This document shows positions 46,330 to 64,000 of a stretch of 64,000 nucleotides of DNA, piece by piece. The notes beneath the pieces are model-generated. The model searched no databases and was not told where the DNA came from. It saw only the letters and a program-made list of their open reading frames with translations. Within the stretch, counting starts at the first letter, position 1. Each line of letters opens with the position of its first letter. Source of the DNA: Sulfurisoma sp. (GTDB lineage Bacteria > Pseudomonadota > Gammaproteobacteria > Burkholderiales > Rhodocyclaceae); NCBI GenBank assembly GCA_030691075.1, contig JAUYFI010000030.1, positions 53,621-117,620 of the forward strand, given 5' to 3'. Made by a program: the position numbers and the translations under genes.

Positions 46330-46932
46330 TCAGATGAAGAGCGTGACGTCGGCCGTTTGCGCAACGGGCAGGAATGAGGCAGCACCCACGAAGTCCATGC
46401 CATCGACGAAGTCTTCATGGTTGAAGCCGAACAACTCCACGGTCATCTGGCAGACGACGAACTTGACGCCGGCTTCTTGGGAGAGTTCGCGAAGTTCCTC
46501 GATCTTGGCCACGCCGTTGTTGGCGATGGTCTGCTGCATCAACTTGGTGGCGACCGTCTCGAAGCCCGGGATGCCGGCCTGAATCAGGTTGGGGATGTTC
46601 CAGTTGATGCTCTTGAACCAGTCCGGGCCGAAAGGCATTTTCATCGGCATGCCAGGGTTGCCCAGCGGGCTGATCTTCAGGTCGGAAACGTCCTTCTTGA
46701 CGAGATTGAGGCCGTAGAAGGTGAAGAAGATGGTGACATCCCAGCCCATCGCGGCGGCGGTCGAGGCGAGGATGAACGGCGGGTAGGCCCAGTCCAGCGT
46801 GCCCTTGGTGGCGATGATGGCCATCGAGGGGGTCTTGGCTTCCTGAATTTCCTGCAGCTTCTGCGGCAGGATCTCGTCGAGCCGCTGGCGGATCAGATCG
46901 TCGATGACGGCAATTTCGGGGGTGGCGCCCAT
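46330..46932 (-). CDS. dsrE2: DsrE2-type sulfur carrier protein (DsrE/DsrF-like)
   Basis: A 200-residue DsrE-fold protein. After a helical N-terminus it shows SMAIIATKGTLDWAYPPFIL and MGWDVTIFFTFYGLNLVKK, and the conserved cysteine lies at residue 161 in VVCQMTVELFGFNHEDF, matching the CxMxxxxxG block of DsrE2. DsrE2 proteins accept or hand over sulfane sulfur and are usually encoded beside tusA and a rhodanese in sulfur oxidisers. Here tusA lies 36 bases upstream on the same strand. Some DsrE2 proteins are membrane-associated; hydrophobic stretches here are moderate. Confidence 0.88.
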   Translation of the reverse strand: MGATPEIAVIDDLIRQRLDEILPQKLQEIQEAKTPSMAIIATKGTLDWAYPPFILASTAAAMGWDVTIFFTFYGLNLVKKDVSDLKISPLGNPGMPMKMPFGPDWFKSINWNIPNLIQAGIPGFETVATKLMQQTIANNGVAKIEELRELSQEAGVKFVVCQMTVELFGFNHEDFVDGMDFVGAASFLPVAQTADVTLFI

Positions 46933-46968
46933 GCTGTTCTCCTCCTTGGTAATTATCGTTGTCGCTGC

Positions 46969-47196
46969 TTACTTGCGCTTGATGAAGAACTCGAATTCCT
47001 TGTTCTTCTCGGCGCTGGAGAGCAGCTCGTTGCCGGTCTGCTTGGCGAAGGCCTGGAAATCCTTGACGGAGCCCGGGTCGGTGGCCAGGATGCGCAGCGT
47101 CTGGCCCGGGGTCAGTTCGGTCAGTGCCTTCTTGGCGCGCAGAATAGGCAGCGGGCAGTTGAGGCCGCGGGCGTCGAGTTCTTTGTCGAAATTCAT
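46969..47196 (-). CDS. tusA: TusA sulfurtransferase
   Basis: Small sulfur carrier, 75 residues, with the active-site motif CPLP at residues 14-17 in LDARGLNCPLPILRAKKAL and the conserved LRILATDPGSVKDFQAFAKQ. In sulfur oxidisers TusA passes sulfane sulfur between rhodanese, DsrE-type proteins and the oxidising complexes, as well as serving tRNA thiolation. It heads the tusA-dsrE2 pair. Confidence 0.95.
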   Translation of the reverse strand: MNFDKELDARGLNCPLPILRAKKALTELTPGQTLRILATDPGSVKDFQAFAKQTGNELLSSAEKNKEFEFFIKRK

Positions 47197-47358: not shown

Positions 47359-48342
47359 TCAGCCAATACCTTGGTAATAGAGATTCTGCGGATGGTTGGC
47401 CTGGGCGAAGAAGAACCAGCGCTCGGCCATCAGGCCGAGATACTGCACCATGAAGGCGAACAGCATGAGTTCCAGCGCCCCGGCGCCGGTGAATCCCGTG
47501 GCGAGCAGCAGCGCCGGGACGACGAAGGCCAGCAGCAGGAAAAGCCACTTGAGCGAGCGCAGGAATCCGGCGCTCTTGCCGTGGAAGAACTCGCGGGTGT
47601 TGAAGGAACCGCCCATGAAGCCCTGCGCCTTCTGCACGATCCTGGGATGCTTGATGCCAATGGCCGTTTGCAGCGTGGATTTCGGTTTCAAACGGGCGTT
47701 GCGGATCAGCGACGCGACACGACTGACCAGACCAAGCAGGGTGAGGACTGCGGCCCAGCCGGCGAAGAAGCGCACCAGGTCGGGCGCGGCAACGGCGGCG
47801 AACACGGTGGCGAGCGTGAAGCCGGAGGCGCCGCCGAGCAGGATGTAGTTGATGACGGTCAGCGGCGAATGCCATTCGCGCAGGAAACGCAGGCAGGCGT
47901 AGATCATGGCGGTGCAGACATAGAGCGCGAAGGCGAGCACGGTGCCGACGACGCCGAGCACGACGGTGAGATCGATGGCGATGTTGCCGGGCAGCGTGGC
48001 CAGCACCGGCTTGAAGTCGAAGAGGTGCGCGACGCCGTAAAGGAACACCGTACCCATGAACGCCGGCAGCACGATCACCTCGCGCGACAGCCACGAGGTG
48101 CGCCATTGCGTCGCCGAGCGCCAGGCGCGCTCGGGGCGGCCGAGGTGGAAAAACGACGCAATCAGGCCGCCGATCAGGAACAACAGGGCGACGATGCTGC
48201 CATGGGCGTAAAAGGCGTGGCTGTCCTGCTTCGGCAACAAATCGAACAGGGCGTAGGACTGGGCGGTGAACAACGCGAGGAACAGGCCCTGGCCGACGCC
48301 GATGAGCGTGGTGAGAAAGATGACGGAGAACGCGGGATGCAT
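47359..48342 (-). CDS. soeC: Sulfite dehydrogenase membrane anchor SoeC (DmsC-type)
   Basis: Quinone-linked membrane anchor of the cytoplasmic molybdoenzyme SoeABC. The 327-residue protein has about eight helices and starts MHPAFSVIFLTTLIGVGQGL, with FLIGGLIASFFHLGRPERAW, a block typical of DmsC-like anchors. The subunit would pass electrons from SoeB to quinone. It is the third gene of the run soeA-soeB-soeC; a 164-base gap with a GC-rich hairpin separates it from soeB. The soe assignment comes from gene content and the sulfur genes around it. Confidence 0.88.
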   Translation of the reverse strand: MHPAFSVIFLTTLIGVGQGLFLALFTAQSYALFDLLPKQDSHAFYAHGSIVALLFLIGGLIASFFHLGRPERAWRSATQWRTSWLSREVIVLPAFMGTVFLYGVAHLFDFKPVLATLPGNIAIDLTVVLGVVGTVLAFALYVCTAMIYACLRFLREWHSPLTVINYILLGGASGFTLATVFAAVAAPDLVRFFAGWAAVLTLLGLVSRVASLIRNARLKPKSTLQTAIGIKHPRIVQKAQGFMGGSFNTREFFHGKSAGFLRSLKWLFLLLAFVVPALLLATGFTGAGALELMLFAFMVQYLGLMAERWFFFAQANHPQNLYYQGIG

Positions 48343-48506: not shown

Positions 48507-49238
48507 TTACCAGGAGGTGACGTCGTCGAGCGAGGGCTCGGACTTGCCGGGCTTGGGCAGCAGGCCGTCGATCTTGAGGGGATTGTCGGCGCGCTCGATC
48601 TCATCGACGCGCAGGCGCAGCTTGGTCTTGCGCCGCGGCAGGTAGTGGTTGGCCGGACTGGTGCCCCACTCCGGCATCAACTGGTAGCCACCGGATTCAC
48701 GGATGGCATGGCTGACCTCGGACTCCGGGTCATGGATATCGCCGTAGAGGCGCGCGCCGGTCGGACAGGCGCGCACGCAAGCGGGGCGGCGCTCCTCTTC
48801 CGTCATGTCCGGATCGTAGAGGCGGTCGACGCAGAGGGTGCATTTCTTCATCACCTTCTGCGACTCGTCGAACTCGCGCGCGCCGTAGGGGCAGGCCCAC
48901 GAGCAGTACTTGCAGCCGATGCACTTGTCGTAATTGACAAGGACGATGCCGTCCTCCTTGCGCTTGTAGGAAGCGCCCGTCGGACACACCGGCACGCAGG
49001 GCGGATCCTCGCAATGCAGGCAGGATTTCGGGAAGTGCACCGTTTCCGTATTGGGAAACTCGCCGACCTCGAAAGTCTGCACGCGGTTGAAGAAGGTTCC
49101 GGTCGGGTCCTTGCCGTAGGGATTCTGGTCCACCATCGGGCCGGCCTCGCCGGAGGTGTTCCATTCCTTGCAGTTGGTGACGCAGGCCTGGCAGCCAACG
49201 CAGACGTTGAGGTCGATTACGAGAGCGAGTTGGGTCAT
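48507..49238 (-). CDS. soeB: Sulfite dehydrogenase iron-sulfur subunit SoeB
   Basis: Electron-transfer subunit with four [4Fe-4S] clusters. The four cysteine groups are CVGCQACVTNCKEWNT, CLHCEDPPCVPVCPTGASY, CIGCKYCSWACPYGAREFD and CTLCVDRLYD with RPACVRACPTGARLYGDI. The 243-residue length is normal for this group. The start overlaps the soeA stop by four bases (ATGA), so the two are translated together. It passes electrons from the molybdenum site of SoeA to SoeC. Confidence 0.93.
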   Translation of the reverse strand: MTQLALVIDLNVCVGCQACVTNCKEWNTSGEAGPMVDQNPYGKDPTGTFFNRVQTFEVGEFPNTETVHFPKSCLHCEDPPCVPVCPTGASYKRKEDGIVLVNYDKCIGCKYCSWACPYGAREFDESQKVMKKCTLCVDRLYDPDMTEEERRPACVRACPTGARLYGDIHDPESEVSHAIRESGGYQLMPEWGTSPANHYLPRRKTKLRLRVDEIERADNPLKIDGLLPKPGKSEPSLDDVTSW

Positions 49239-52120
49239 TTGTTCTTGCCAGCGAAGAAGTTCCAGACGCTCTTGCGCTCGGACTGGCCGGGATAAGGCTT
49301 CAGCGGCTCGAACTGCGGCGAAGTGACCGCCGTCTCGCCAGCGCCGACTTTATAGATCCGCACGCGCACGTCGTACCACGCGGCCTGCCCGGTGATCGGA
49401 TCGGAATTGGAAATATTGCCCGGCCCGGCCTTGTCCACGCTGGCCGGCAGTTCCTCGGAGATCAGGTGGTTGAGCAGGAAGCCGCGTTGCGACTCGTTGG
49501 CATCCGGCGTCAGGTTCCAGGCACCCGCCGCCTTGCCGATGGCGTTCCAGGTCCACACCGTGCCCGGCTCGACCGCCTCGGAATGGCGGGCCATGCAGCG
49601 CACCTTGCCCCACTGCGATTCGACCCAGATCCAGTCGCCGTCCTCGATGCCGGCGACGCGGGCGGTATGGCTGTTCACGTAAAGGTAATTGTGGGTGTGG
49701 ATCTGCCGCAACCAGGCGTTCTGCGAATCCCACGAGTGGTACATCGCCATCGGCCGCTGGGTCACGGCGCACAGCGGGTACTTGTGCTTGTCGGAGGCCT
49801 GGCTCTCCAGCGTCTCATAGTAGAAGGGCAGCGGGTCGAAATAGGTCTCGACGCGTTTCTTCAGGTGCTCCGGCGGCTTGCGCGTGAGCCCCTTGCCCTG
49901 CGCCGCCGTGCGGAACTTTTGCAGCACCTCGGAGTAGATGTGGATCAGGATCGGTTCGGCGTAGCGCGTGATGCGGCTGCGCTGCGACCATTCGAGGTAG
50001 CCCTTGTTCCAGTTGCGCATGTACTGGTAGCTCTTGGGCAGTTCGTAGTGGAAGACGCAGTCGTTCTTGGCGTACATCTCCCACTGGTTTGGGTTCGGTT
50101 CCCCGCGGAGTGATTTTTCGCCACCCTTGCCGCGCCAACCGGCGAGGAAGCCGATGCCCGAGCCGGGCTCGGTCTCGTAGTTGACGATGAAGTCCGGGTA
50201 GTCGCGGTACTTGCGACTGCCGTCCTTGTTCACGAACACCGGCAGCTTGAGGCGGGTGCCGAGTTCGATCAGCACTTCCTGGAAGGGCTTGCATTCGCCC
50301 GTCACTGGCACCACCGGGATGCGCACGGAATCGACCGGGCCGTCGAACTCGGAAATCGGCCGATCGAGAATCGACATGACATCGTGGCGCTCGAGGTAGG
50401 TGGTATCCGGCAGCACCAGGTCGGCAAAGGCCGTCATCTCGGACTGGAATGCGTCGCAAACGACGAGGAAGGGAATCTTGTATTCGCCATCCTCGCCCTT
50501 GTCGTTGAGCATCTTGCGGACCTCGACGGCGTTCATGGTCGAGTTCCACGACATGTTGGCCATGAAGATCAGCAGGGTGTCGATGCTGTAGGGATCGCCG
50601 CGCCAGGCGTTGGTGATGACGTTGTGCATCAGGCCGTGCACCGACAGCGGGTACTCCCAGGAGAAACCCTTGTCGATGCGCACCGGCTTGCCCTGCTCGT
50701 CGACAAACAGATCGTCGGGGTCGGAGGGCCAGCCCAGCGCCATGCCGTCGAGCGGGTGATTCGGCTTGACCGCCAGCGGCGTGTTCGGCGTGCGGGCGCA
50801 GGGCGGGATCGGCCGCGGGAACGGCACCTTGTGGCGAAAACCGCCCGGCCGGTCGATGGTGCCGAGCAGCGACATCAGGATAGCCAGCGCGCGGATGGTC
50901 TGGAATCCGTTGGAGTGCGCGGCCAAGCCGCGCATGGCGTGGAACGAAACCGGATTGCCGGTGACGCTGTCGTGCTCGACGCCCCAGGAGTCGGTCCAGG
51001 AGATCGGCAGCTCGATGCGCTGATCGCGGGCGGTAACGCCCATTTCGCGCGCCAGGCGGCGGATGGTGTCGGCGGATATGCCGGTGATGCCGGCGGCCCA
51101 GTCGGCCGTGTAATTCTCGACGCGCTCCTTCAGCAACTGGAACGAAGGCTTGACCGGCGTGCCGTCACGCAGCGTGAACTCGCCGAACAGGTAAGGGTCG
51201 GCTCCGGCCTGATGGGTGACGACGGCCTTGTCGGTATTGCGGTCCCACCACAGCTTGTCCTGCGGGTCGTAGCAGGCTTCCTCTTCCGGCACCTCGGTGC
51301 GCAGGAACATGCCGAACTCGTCGCTGGCCGCATCGACGTTCACCAGTTGGCCGGCGTTGGAATACCTGACCAGGAAGTCGCGGTCGTAAAGGCCGAGCGC
51401 GATGATTTCGTGGATGATGGCCAGCAGCAGCGCGCCGTCGGTGCCGGGACGGATGGGCACCCATTCGTCGGCGATCGCCGAATAACCGGTGCGCACCGGG
51501 TTGATCGAAATGAAGCGGCCGCCGTCGCGCTTGAACTTGCCCAGCGCCATCTTGAGCGGATTGGAATGATGGTCCTCGGCGGTGCCGATCATCACGAAAA
51601 GTTTCGACCGATCCAGGTCGGGACCGCCAAACTCCCAGAAGGAGCCGCCGATGGTGTAGATCATGCCGGCGGCCATGTTGACCGAGCAGAAGCCGCCATG
51701 CGCCGCATAGTTGGGCGTGCCGAACTGGCGGGCGAAGAGGCCGGTCAGCGCCTGCATCTGGTCGCGACCGGTGAACAGCGCGAACTTCTTCGGGTCGGTG
51801 GCGCGGATTTTGGCCAAGCGCTCGGACAGGATGGTGAACGCCTCTTCCCAGCTGATCGGTTCGAACTCGCCCAGACCGCGATCCGAACCAGCCTTGCGCC
51901 GCAACGGCCGCGTCAGCCGCGCCGGCGAATACTGCTTCATGATGCCCGAGCTGCCCTTGGCGCAGATCACCCCCTTGTTGAGCGGGTGGTCGGGGTTGCC
52001 GTCGATGTAGCGGATCTGCCCATCGCGCAGATGCACGCGTATGCCGCAGCGGCAGGCGCACATGTAGCAGGTGGTCTTCTTGATCTCCGTGACCGGAGCG
52101 GGTGCGGGGGATGCTTGCAT
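49235..52120 (-). CDS. soeA: Sulfite dehydrogenase molybdopterin subunit SoeA
   Basis: Catalytic subunit of the DMSO-reductase family, thought to oxidise sulfite to sulfate on the cytoplasmic side. The 961-residue protein begins with a [4Fe-4S] binding group CYMCACRCG with the fourth ligand in KGVICAKGSSG, and has no twin-arginine signal, which fits a cytoplasmic enzyme. The molybdopterin-guanine-dinucleotide domains follow (GRDQMQALTGLFARQFGTPN, then LFVMIGTAEDHHSNPLKMAL) and the C-terminal domain contains YLYVNSHTARVAGIEDGDWI. Element A lies near residues 924-931, read KVGAGETA, in the last beta region. A perfect FNR-type box lies upstream. Other enzymes of the family (for example polysulfide reductases) cannot be fully excluded. 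Confidence 0.9.
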   Translation of the reverse strand: MQASPAPAPVTEIKKTTCYMCACRCGIRVHLRDGQIRYIDGNPDHPLNKGVICAKGSSGIMKQYSPARLTRPLRRKAGSDRGLGEFEPISWEEAFTILSERLAKIRATDPKKFALFTGRDQMQALTGLFARQFGTPNYAAHGGFCSVNMAAGMIYTIGGSFWEFGGPDLDRSKLFVMIGTAEDHHSNPLKMALGKFKRDGGRFISINPVRTGYSAIADEWVPIRPGTDGALLLAIIHEIIALGLYDRDFLVRYSNAGQLVNVDAASDEFGMFLRTEVPEEEACYDPQDKLWWDRNTDKAVVTHQAGADPYLFGEFTLRDGTPVKPSFQLLKERVENYTADWAAGITGISADTIRRLAREMGVTARDQRIELPISWTDSWGVEHDSVTGNPVSFHAMRGLAAHSNGFQTIRALAILMSLLGTIDRPGGFRHKVPFPRPIPPCARTPNTPLAVKPNHPLDGMALGWPSDPDDLFVDEQGKPVRIDKGFSWEYPLSVHGLMHNVITNAWRGDPYSIDTLLIFMANMSWNSTMNAVEVRKMLNDKGEDGEYKIPFLVVCDAFQSEMTAFADLVLPDTTYLERHDVMSILDRPISEFDGPVDSVRIPVVPVTGECKPFQEVLIELGTRLKLPVFVNKDGSRKYRDYPDFIVNYETEPGSGIGFLAGWRGKGGEKSLRGEPNPNQWEMYAKNDCVFHYELPKSYQYMRNWNKGYLEWSQRSRITRYAEPILIHIYSEVLQKFRTAAQGKGLTRKPPEHLKKRVETYFDPLPFYYETLESQASDKHKYPLCAVTQRPMAMYHSWDSQNAWLRQIHTHNYLYVNSHTARVAGIEDGDWIWVESQWGKVRCMARHSEAVEPGTVWTWNAIGKAAGAWNLTPDANESQRGFLLNHLISEELPASVDKAGPGNISNSDPITGQAAWYDVRVRIYKVGAGETAVTSPQFEPLKPYPGQSERKSVWNFFAGKNK
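49329..49352 (+). repeat. Element A, short form, inside soeA
   Basis: GCCGTCTCGCCAGCGCCGAC followed by TTTA. It is antisense to soeA and read KVGAGETA near the C-terminus. Confidence 0.9.
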
Positions 52121-52169
52121 GGGGGGCGGGCAAACGGTAAATTAGAACTTGGCGATATTCTGACAAAAT

Positions 52170-52183
52170 TTGATCCAAATCAA
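52170..52183. promoter_or_regulatory. FNR/ANR-type box between soeA and its divergent neighbour
   Basis: TTGATCCAAATCAA is a perfect match to the TTGAT-N4-ATCAA consensus of FNR-family regulators. It lies 50 bases before the soeA start codon and 71 bases before the start of the divergent gene, so it could control both. Confidence 0.75.
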
Positions 52184-52253
52184 CAAGGGGAAAGTTTTTA
52201 TTTCCGAATAAACTCCCCCATCCCCTTGCGCCAACAAGGAAAGAGGCCAACAC

Positions 52254-52670
52254 ATGAGCACAAACATTCCCGACTTCAACGAACAGGAAAAACGCCTGAT
52301 CAGCCAGACCCTGCGCGAACGCTATGGCATGGACGTGCCGATCGAGGTCGCCGATGCCGAGTTGATGCTCGATCAACTCACCGAAGCGCTCGATACCTGC
52401 CCGACCGTGATCTGGGAGCAACGCGGCGCCCACTTCGTCGTGTTCAAGACCGGCGATAACCGATTCCGCTGCCAGTTCTACTATACCGAAACCCAGCAGT
52501 TCGGCACCGGCAAGGACGAGTATGACAGCCTCGGTGACTGCATCATCACCCTCCTGCAAGTGCAATCCGACCACGAACGCGAGAAGGCCGGCATGCGCTC
52601 GGGCATGAACGCCGTCGACTTCAGCAAGGCCAACGATGGCGAGGAATACTACGGCCCGCTGATCGTCTGA
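52254..52670 (+). CDS. Conserved-looking hypothetical protein divergent from soeA
   Basis: A 138-residue soluble acidic protein starting MSTNIPDFNEQEKRLISQTL. It contains WEQRGAHFVVFKTGDNRFRC and FYYTETQQFGTGKDEYDSLG, and ends EEYYGPLIV. No cofactor motif is visible and I do not recognise the family. A good AAGGAAAGAGG ribosome site lies ahead of the ATG. It shares the regulatory region with soeA and is followed by two genes on the same strand, so a link with sulfite oxidation or redox state is plausible but not shown. Confidence 0.6.
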   Translation: MSTNIPDFNEQEKRLISQTLRERYGMDVPIEVADAELMLDQLTEALDTCPTVIWEQRGAHFVVFKTGDNRFRCQFYYTETQQFGTGKDEYDSLGDCIITLLQVQSDHEREKAGMRSGMNAVDFSKANDGEEYYGPLIV

Positions 52671-63723: not shown

Positions 63724-64000
63724 TTAGTGCGGCGCGGCAGCCTTGAACAGCTTGGACTTGTCGATCAGATCCACGTGGGCGCGCTTGAAGCAGGTCCACT
63801 GCTTGGACTTCTTGTCGTAGATCGAATTCACGAAGCAGTGCCAGTTCTTCTCGTCGACGAAGTTCTTGTCGGTGCGATAGTAGAAGCCGGGGTAACGGCT
63901 CTCTTCGCGGAACTGGATGTGCTTCATGTGGGCTTCGGCCGTCAGGATGCGATGGTAGTTTTCCCAGGCGCGCAGCAGTTCGTGCAGATCCTTCGCACGC
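63724..64000 (-). CDS. aprA: Adenylylsulfate reductase alpha subunit, C-terminal part
   Basis: The 3' end of aprA; the gene continues beyond the window. The visible 91 residues read in from the edge as AKDLHELLRAWENYHRILTA, then EAHMKHIQFREESRYPGFYY, and NWHCFVNSIYDKKSKQWTCF near the end, which is the conserved C-terminus of the FAD-containing alpha subunit. In sulfur oxidisers AprBA runs in reverse, forming APS from sulfite and AMP. It faces away from the qmo-hdr operon. The track begins at an internal methionine; the frame is open to base 64000. Confidence 0.93.
   Translation of the reverse strand, partial: RAKDLHELLRAWENYHRILTAEAHMKHIQFREESRYPGFYYRTDKNFVDEKNWHCFVNSIYDKKSKQWTCFKRAHVDLIDKSKLFKAAAPH

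Follow-up and report, generated by a model that had tools for sequence, protein, structure and literature searches.

The short region between soeA and its divergent neighbor holds a palindrome of the FNR type, which raises two questions: whether oxygen controls sulfite oxidation through this site, and in which direction. Many sulfur oxidizers have two parallel sulfite-oxidation routes, and the timing of each is poorly known. The window analyzed here is a 64-kb stretch (64,000 nucleotides) of a Sulfurisoma sp. assembly, and the features discussed are collected in Table 1. The soe genes carry, in one operon, the three components by which SoeABC is recognized: a molybdopterin subunit, a 4Fe-4S subunit and a membrane anchor. 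SoeA is 84% identical to its Thioalkalivibrio sulfidiphilus homologue and 96% identical to that of Sulfurisoma sediminicola BSN1 (G003). Its N-terminus (MQASPAPAPVTEIKKTTCYMC), read directly, has no Tat signal and is of the cytoplasmic type. Directly after soeC, and reading the same way, come dsrE2-like and tusA-like sulfur-carrier genes (window 46330-47196).

Table 1. Genes and putative regulatory elements around the soeA promoter (window coordinates)
Feature	Position	Strand	Families or basis
soeA, molybdopterin subunit of SoeABC sulfite dehydrogenase, 961 aa	49235..52120	-	PF00384/PF04879/PF01568
soeB, ferredoxin-like 4Fe-4S subunit	48507..49238	-	Fer4 families
soeC, DmsC/NrfD-like membrane anchor	47359..48342	-	PF04976
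Divergent gene, 138 aa	52254..52670	+	Beside soeA in many relatives
FNR-type box TTGATCCAAATCAA (TTGATTTGGATCAA read towards soeA)	52170..52183	.	Centre 52176.5
Palindromic operator TTATTCGGAAATAAAAA of the soeA promoter	52195..52211	-	Also before sat; in relatives before aprBA
Predicted -35 TTGTTG of soeA, overlapping the FNR box	52181..52186	-	TTG spacing in family promoters
Predicted -10 CAGAAT of soeA, start near 52150	52157..52162	-	Promoter comparison
TCTAAT, alternative -10 for class II activation	52141..52146	-	23 nt from box

An FNR-type box upstream of soeA

As originally predicted, TTGATCCAAATCAA occupies exactly positions 52170-52183, and it matches TTGAT-N4-ATCAA at 10 of the 10 fixed positions. 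It lies within the 133-bp gap that separates soeA (start 52120, minus strand) from the gene at 52254. In a pattern search it was the only perfect TTGAT-N4-ATCAA of the 64-kb window; the whole 3.39-Mb assembly has six. With the window (64% GC) taken as a first-order Markov chain, chance would supply 0.024 perfect boxes per 64 kb and about 1.25 per genome, and the Poisson probability of six or more per genome is about 0.002. A one-mismatch site at 51501 was set aside; it lies inside soeA, and such sites are as numerous as chance predicts.

The box is conserved in part of the genus and beyond it. Two congeners, S. sediminicola BSN1 and G001, carry it as TTGATCTGGATCAA at the same distance from soeA, with the arms and position kept and the N4 altered; the soeA promoter of a third, G002, has no box. 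Three of the five members of genus g66 have TTGATCCAGATCAA, TTGATGCAGATCAA and TTGATCCAGATTAA, and genus g42 has TTGACCTGGATCAA; these copies are perfect or have one mismatch and stand in the same register as the Sulfurisoma box. Throughout genera g1, g66 and g42, all soe boxes lie exactly 7 nt before a conserved AGAATAT core, and the arms are retained while the flanking bases vary between genera. Altogether, orthologous soeA promoters have the box in 7 of 10 members across the three genera. More than 60 further soeA upstream regions in the family are without it, and the close relatives G002, G163 and G272 do not have it. The carriers fall on separate branches of the soeA tree, with modest support, so the box has been gained or lost repeatedly.

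Such a pattern could be fortuitous, if the -35 region TTGTTGAT happened to precede ATCAA and had no regulatory effect. In box-free relatives the -35 TTGTTG does partly coincide with the left half of the box, and the box is missing from most soe promoters in the family. However, the low expectation per 64 kb, the occurrence of the box at one register in three genera on separate tree branches, and the recurrence of FNR boxes at sat/apr promoters (see below) make coincidence very unlikely. Because it is a perfect match of a kind seldom expected by chance, keeps one register in three genera and is accompanied by an FNR gene in the genome, the site at 52170-52183 is very likely a genuine FNR-type site that is lineage-specific. 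It would be a site of the ordinary kind in a new place, and what it can tell lies in its position.

Candidate regulators and their regulon

The original prediction called for an FNR-type regulator in the genome, and one is encoded on the same contig (C88, from about 15766). The protein scores 247.5 bits against a curated Fnr cut-off of 228 bits (NF008365), has intact ligand cysteines (a CSQCNLQELC cluster and a central Cys) and carries an ETVSR recognition helix (E..SR). A one-mismatch FNR box (C88:15709-15722) stands 43 bp before the predicted fnr start and suggests FNR autoregulation. A gene that is hemN-like by eye is divergent from fnr, with this box between the two (L233 1244-3513; G000, C88).

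About 1.6 kb after fnr on the same contig, a second protein of the CRP/FNR family has a PETLSR helix of the type that reads TTGAT. This DNR-like (nitric-oxide-type) protein could be the one that reads the soe box, in which case soe would track denitrification intermediates and not oxygen itself, and the nirS box has the same arms. The DNR label is our own reading, as no curated DNR model scored the protein above its cut-off. Moreover, the soe N4 sequences (TTGG, CTGG, CCAG) are closer to those of ccoN boxes than to those of nirS/nos boxes. Neither objection is strong, and we regard control by the DNR-like protein as quite unlikely.

The remaining perfect boxes of the genome are found upstream of nirS (cytochrome d1 domain) and ccoN, next to a universal stress protein gene and a DUF302 gene, and within an unrelated coding overlap. 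In the three congeners, boxes occur at ccoN, nosZ, a nos-region cytochrome, a SCO1-like gene and the divergent sat/aprBA region, and two of the three have the soe box. As read from these sites, the regulon is an ordinary FNR/DNR regulon to which soe and sat/apr are added. The proposal that the site suits an organism able to respire anaerobically is borne out by the presence of nirS and a cbb3 oxidase and by the anaerobic growth of S. sediminicola BSN1, the closest named relative (PMC6397845). With Fnr encoded and the box conserved, FNR-type, oxygen-dependent control of soe is plausible, and the oxygen link of soe is supported at the level of sequence.

The soe core promoter and the predicted sign of regulation

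Beside the box lies an element that the original prediction had missed. In much of the family, soe promoters share one order of elements: a TTAT-N5-AATAAAA operator, a TTG, 17-18 bp, NA[GC]AAT-AT and, further on, CTAAT. The 55 promoters compared were gathered by requiring the operator and NA[GC]AAT, which by itself accounts for part of the invariance of these two; the TTG played no role in the selection and stands 17 or 18 bp from NA[GC]AAT in 50 of the 55. The CAGAAT-type -10 is retained in box-carrying and box-free promoters. Furthermore, the distance from operator to -10 is the same in soe and sat/apr promoters, the latter of which have an unambiguous extended -10 (TGNTAGNCT). The TTG spacing and this shared distance place the core promoter of soeA under the box.

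Across Rhodocyclales relatives the operator occurs at soe and sat/apr promoters and almost nowhere else; it precedes sat in several relatives and aprBA in congeners. An exact search of 61 genomes returned 10 copies, six before soeA, one before sat, and one at the end of a contig, where a soeA gene probably starts. Allowing three mismatches, the present genome has it at soe, at sat and at one unrelated place only, and on this result a role as a general sulfur-assimilation site was rejected. Further loci are L055 1501-1517 (sat) and L186 and L243 (aprBA). In these searches the operator was not seen at assimilatory cysteine genes. From this distribution, the operator looks dedicated to sulfite oxidation, and it would be a more ancient regulatory element than the FNR box.

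If NA[GC]AAT is the -10, transcription would start near 52150 and the box would be centred near -26.5, on top of both the -35 element and the spacer. Of 23 FNR-activated promoters in E. coli, 19 have the site at -41.5 +/- 4, and FNR-repressed promoters have sites from upstream of the -35 to the start (PMC3688515). Repression is therefore predicted from the position of the box. This runs against the anaerobic induction of soe that the original prediction implied: the usual equation of an FNR box with anaerobic induction is not supported for soe, and anaerobic repression of soeABC is likelier than activation, the direction being one that we infer from promoter geometry.

Activation would call for a different start. 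FNR centred at about -42.5 would recruit RNA polymerase to a second promoter with TCTAAT as its -10, and soeABC would rise in anoxia. TCTAAT was the first candidate for the main -10, since the box then fits a class II arrangement; it was later demoted in view of the aligned family promoters, the spacing of the operator at sat/apr and the class II controls of the same genus. Downstream of the soe box, TTCTAA lies at 22 nt and TCTAAT at 23 nt; in Sulfurisoma and g42 the latter agrees with the consensus at 5 of 6 positions. CTAAT is conserved in 51 of the 55 promoters (it is lost in four), and FNR acts more often as an activator than as a repressor (PMC3688515, PMC5934665). However, within the genus a -10 (CATACT, TAGAGT, GATAAT, GACAAT) stands exactly 22 nt after the box at ccoN (in three of four species), at nosZ and at the nos-region cytochrome, and TCTAAT has a C at the critical -11. 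CTAAT is also conserved without any box, and G251 has CCTGAT despite a perfect box. Finally, a class II promoter needs no -35-like partner and none is seen, whereas the box covers a good TTG-18-CAGAAT core. Activation of this kind is unlikely, though it keeps more than a token share of our confidence.

The gene at 52254 was also proposed as a target of the box. Its product has family members of 35-88% identity beside soeA in relatives and matches nothing in Pfam, NCBIfam or PDB folds; an AlphaFold2 model (mean pLDDT 81) predicts a helix, five strands forming a sheet, and a helix. On this side no -10-like sequence stands at activation distance (GAATAA, GGATAA), as compared in three congeners. 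The idea that the box serves both soeA and the 52254 gene was dropped for lack of a -10 at class II distance.

The explanation that we favor, with about even confidence, is that a genuine FNR-type site was acquired inside the older soeABC promoter, and that binding of FNR in anoxia represses or damps the operon. In air, FNR would lose its iron-sulfur cluster and not bind, and the regulator of the upstream operator together with sigma-70 RNA polymerase would transcribe soeABC. Without oxygen, FNR would bind from about -33 to -20, covering the -35 element and the spacer, and on the core promoter it would repress or damp soeABC. The sequences show the site, its constant register in three genera, the regulator gene and, by comparison, the promoter layout; that FNR binds, where transcription starts and in which direction the effect goes are what we infer here. 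Several observations speak against this explanation. For instance, g42 has lost the -35 TTG at 18 bp, a loss that a merely repressed promoter should not need. TCTAAT, 23 nt after the box and one off class II spacing, makes a fair -10 in both Sulfurisoma and g42. The lack of the box in G002, G163 and G272 counts the same way, as do the Fnr proteins of Herbaspirillum, which are mostly activators (PMC5934665).

The sat-aprBA promoters and known systems

FNR boxes also occur 14-27 nt upstream of the operator at other sulfite-oxidation promoters: (i) at sat in G011, G032 and G013 (one mismatch); and (ii) at aprBA in G001, G002 and G003. They would lie at about -80 to -95 from the predicted starts, distances at which E. 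coli FNR sites belong mostly to repressed promoters, with few activated cases (PMC3688515). The sat-aprBA promoter of the present genome has the operator; an FNR box was sought there and none was found, the best match having three mismatches. Boxes are thus at soe only in this genome, at apr/sat only in G002, and at both in G001 and G003. FNR may act as a switch over one common operator, with anoxia repressing soeABC and supporting the ATP-yielding AprBA-Sat route, but we consider so broad a role rather unlikely.

The sat-aprBA genes of this genome have features of their own. They are co-directional here and divergent in the congeners, and Sat shares no more than about 50% identity with that of the three congeners (L055 1624-2829 against L186 1486-2676), although AprB reaches 94%, which suggests an exchange of the sat gene. 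A contig break interrupts aprA: the part for the C-terminus lies at the end of the window (63724-63999), and the beginning of the gene, preceded by sat and aprB, is found where contig C40 ends (G000, from 30116). The contig of the window and C40 are therefore probably neighbors.

No description of FNR control of soe was found in the part of the literature on SoeABC and FNR that was searched. With an FNR site at soeABC, boxes at aprBA/sat and a common operator in relatives, oxygen control of route choice becomes directly testable, and the cultured S. sediminicola is an organism in which it can be tested. The locus also illustrates that a box alone is insufficient, as its place relative to the core promoter suggests a sign opposite to the one usually assumed.

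Three known systems invite comparison. The operator resembles the CysB/LysR-type operators of cysteine regulons, in that it is a short A+T-rich palindrome (TTAT-N5-AATAA) just upstream of a promoter; it differs in that it occurs at soe and sat/apr and was not seen at assimilatory cysteine genes. The box shares with FNR/ANR-type sites, such as those of the E. coli FNR regulon (PMC3688515), an exact consensus, a true FNR in the genome and sister sites at cbb3 oxidase and denitrification genes. It differs in having an operon for sulfite oxidation as its target, and in its place on the predicted core promoter where -41.5 would be usual for activation. The operon itself is like the SoeABC of the Allochromatium vinosum type, which was surveyed along with S. 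sediminicola (PMC6397845): by its sequence, it has the same three-subunit layout and subunit domains, a SoeA without a Tat signal, and sulfur-carrier genes downstream.
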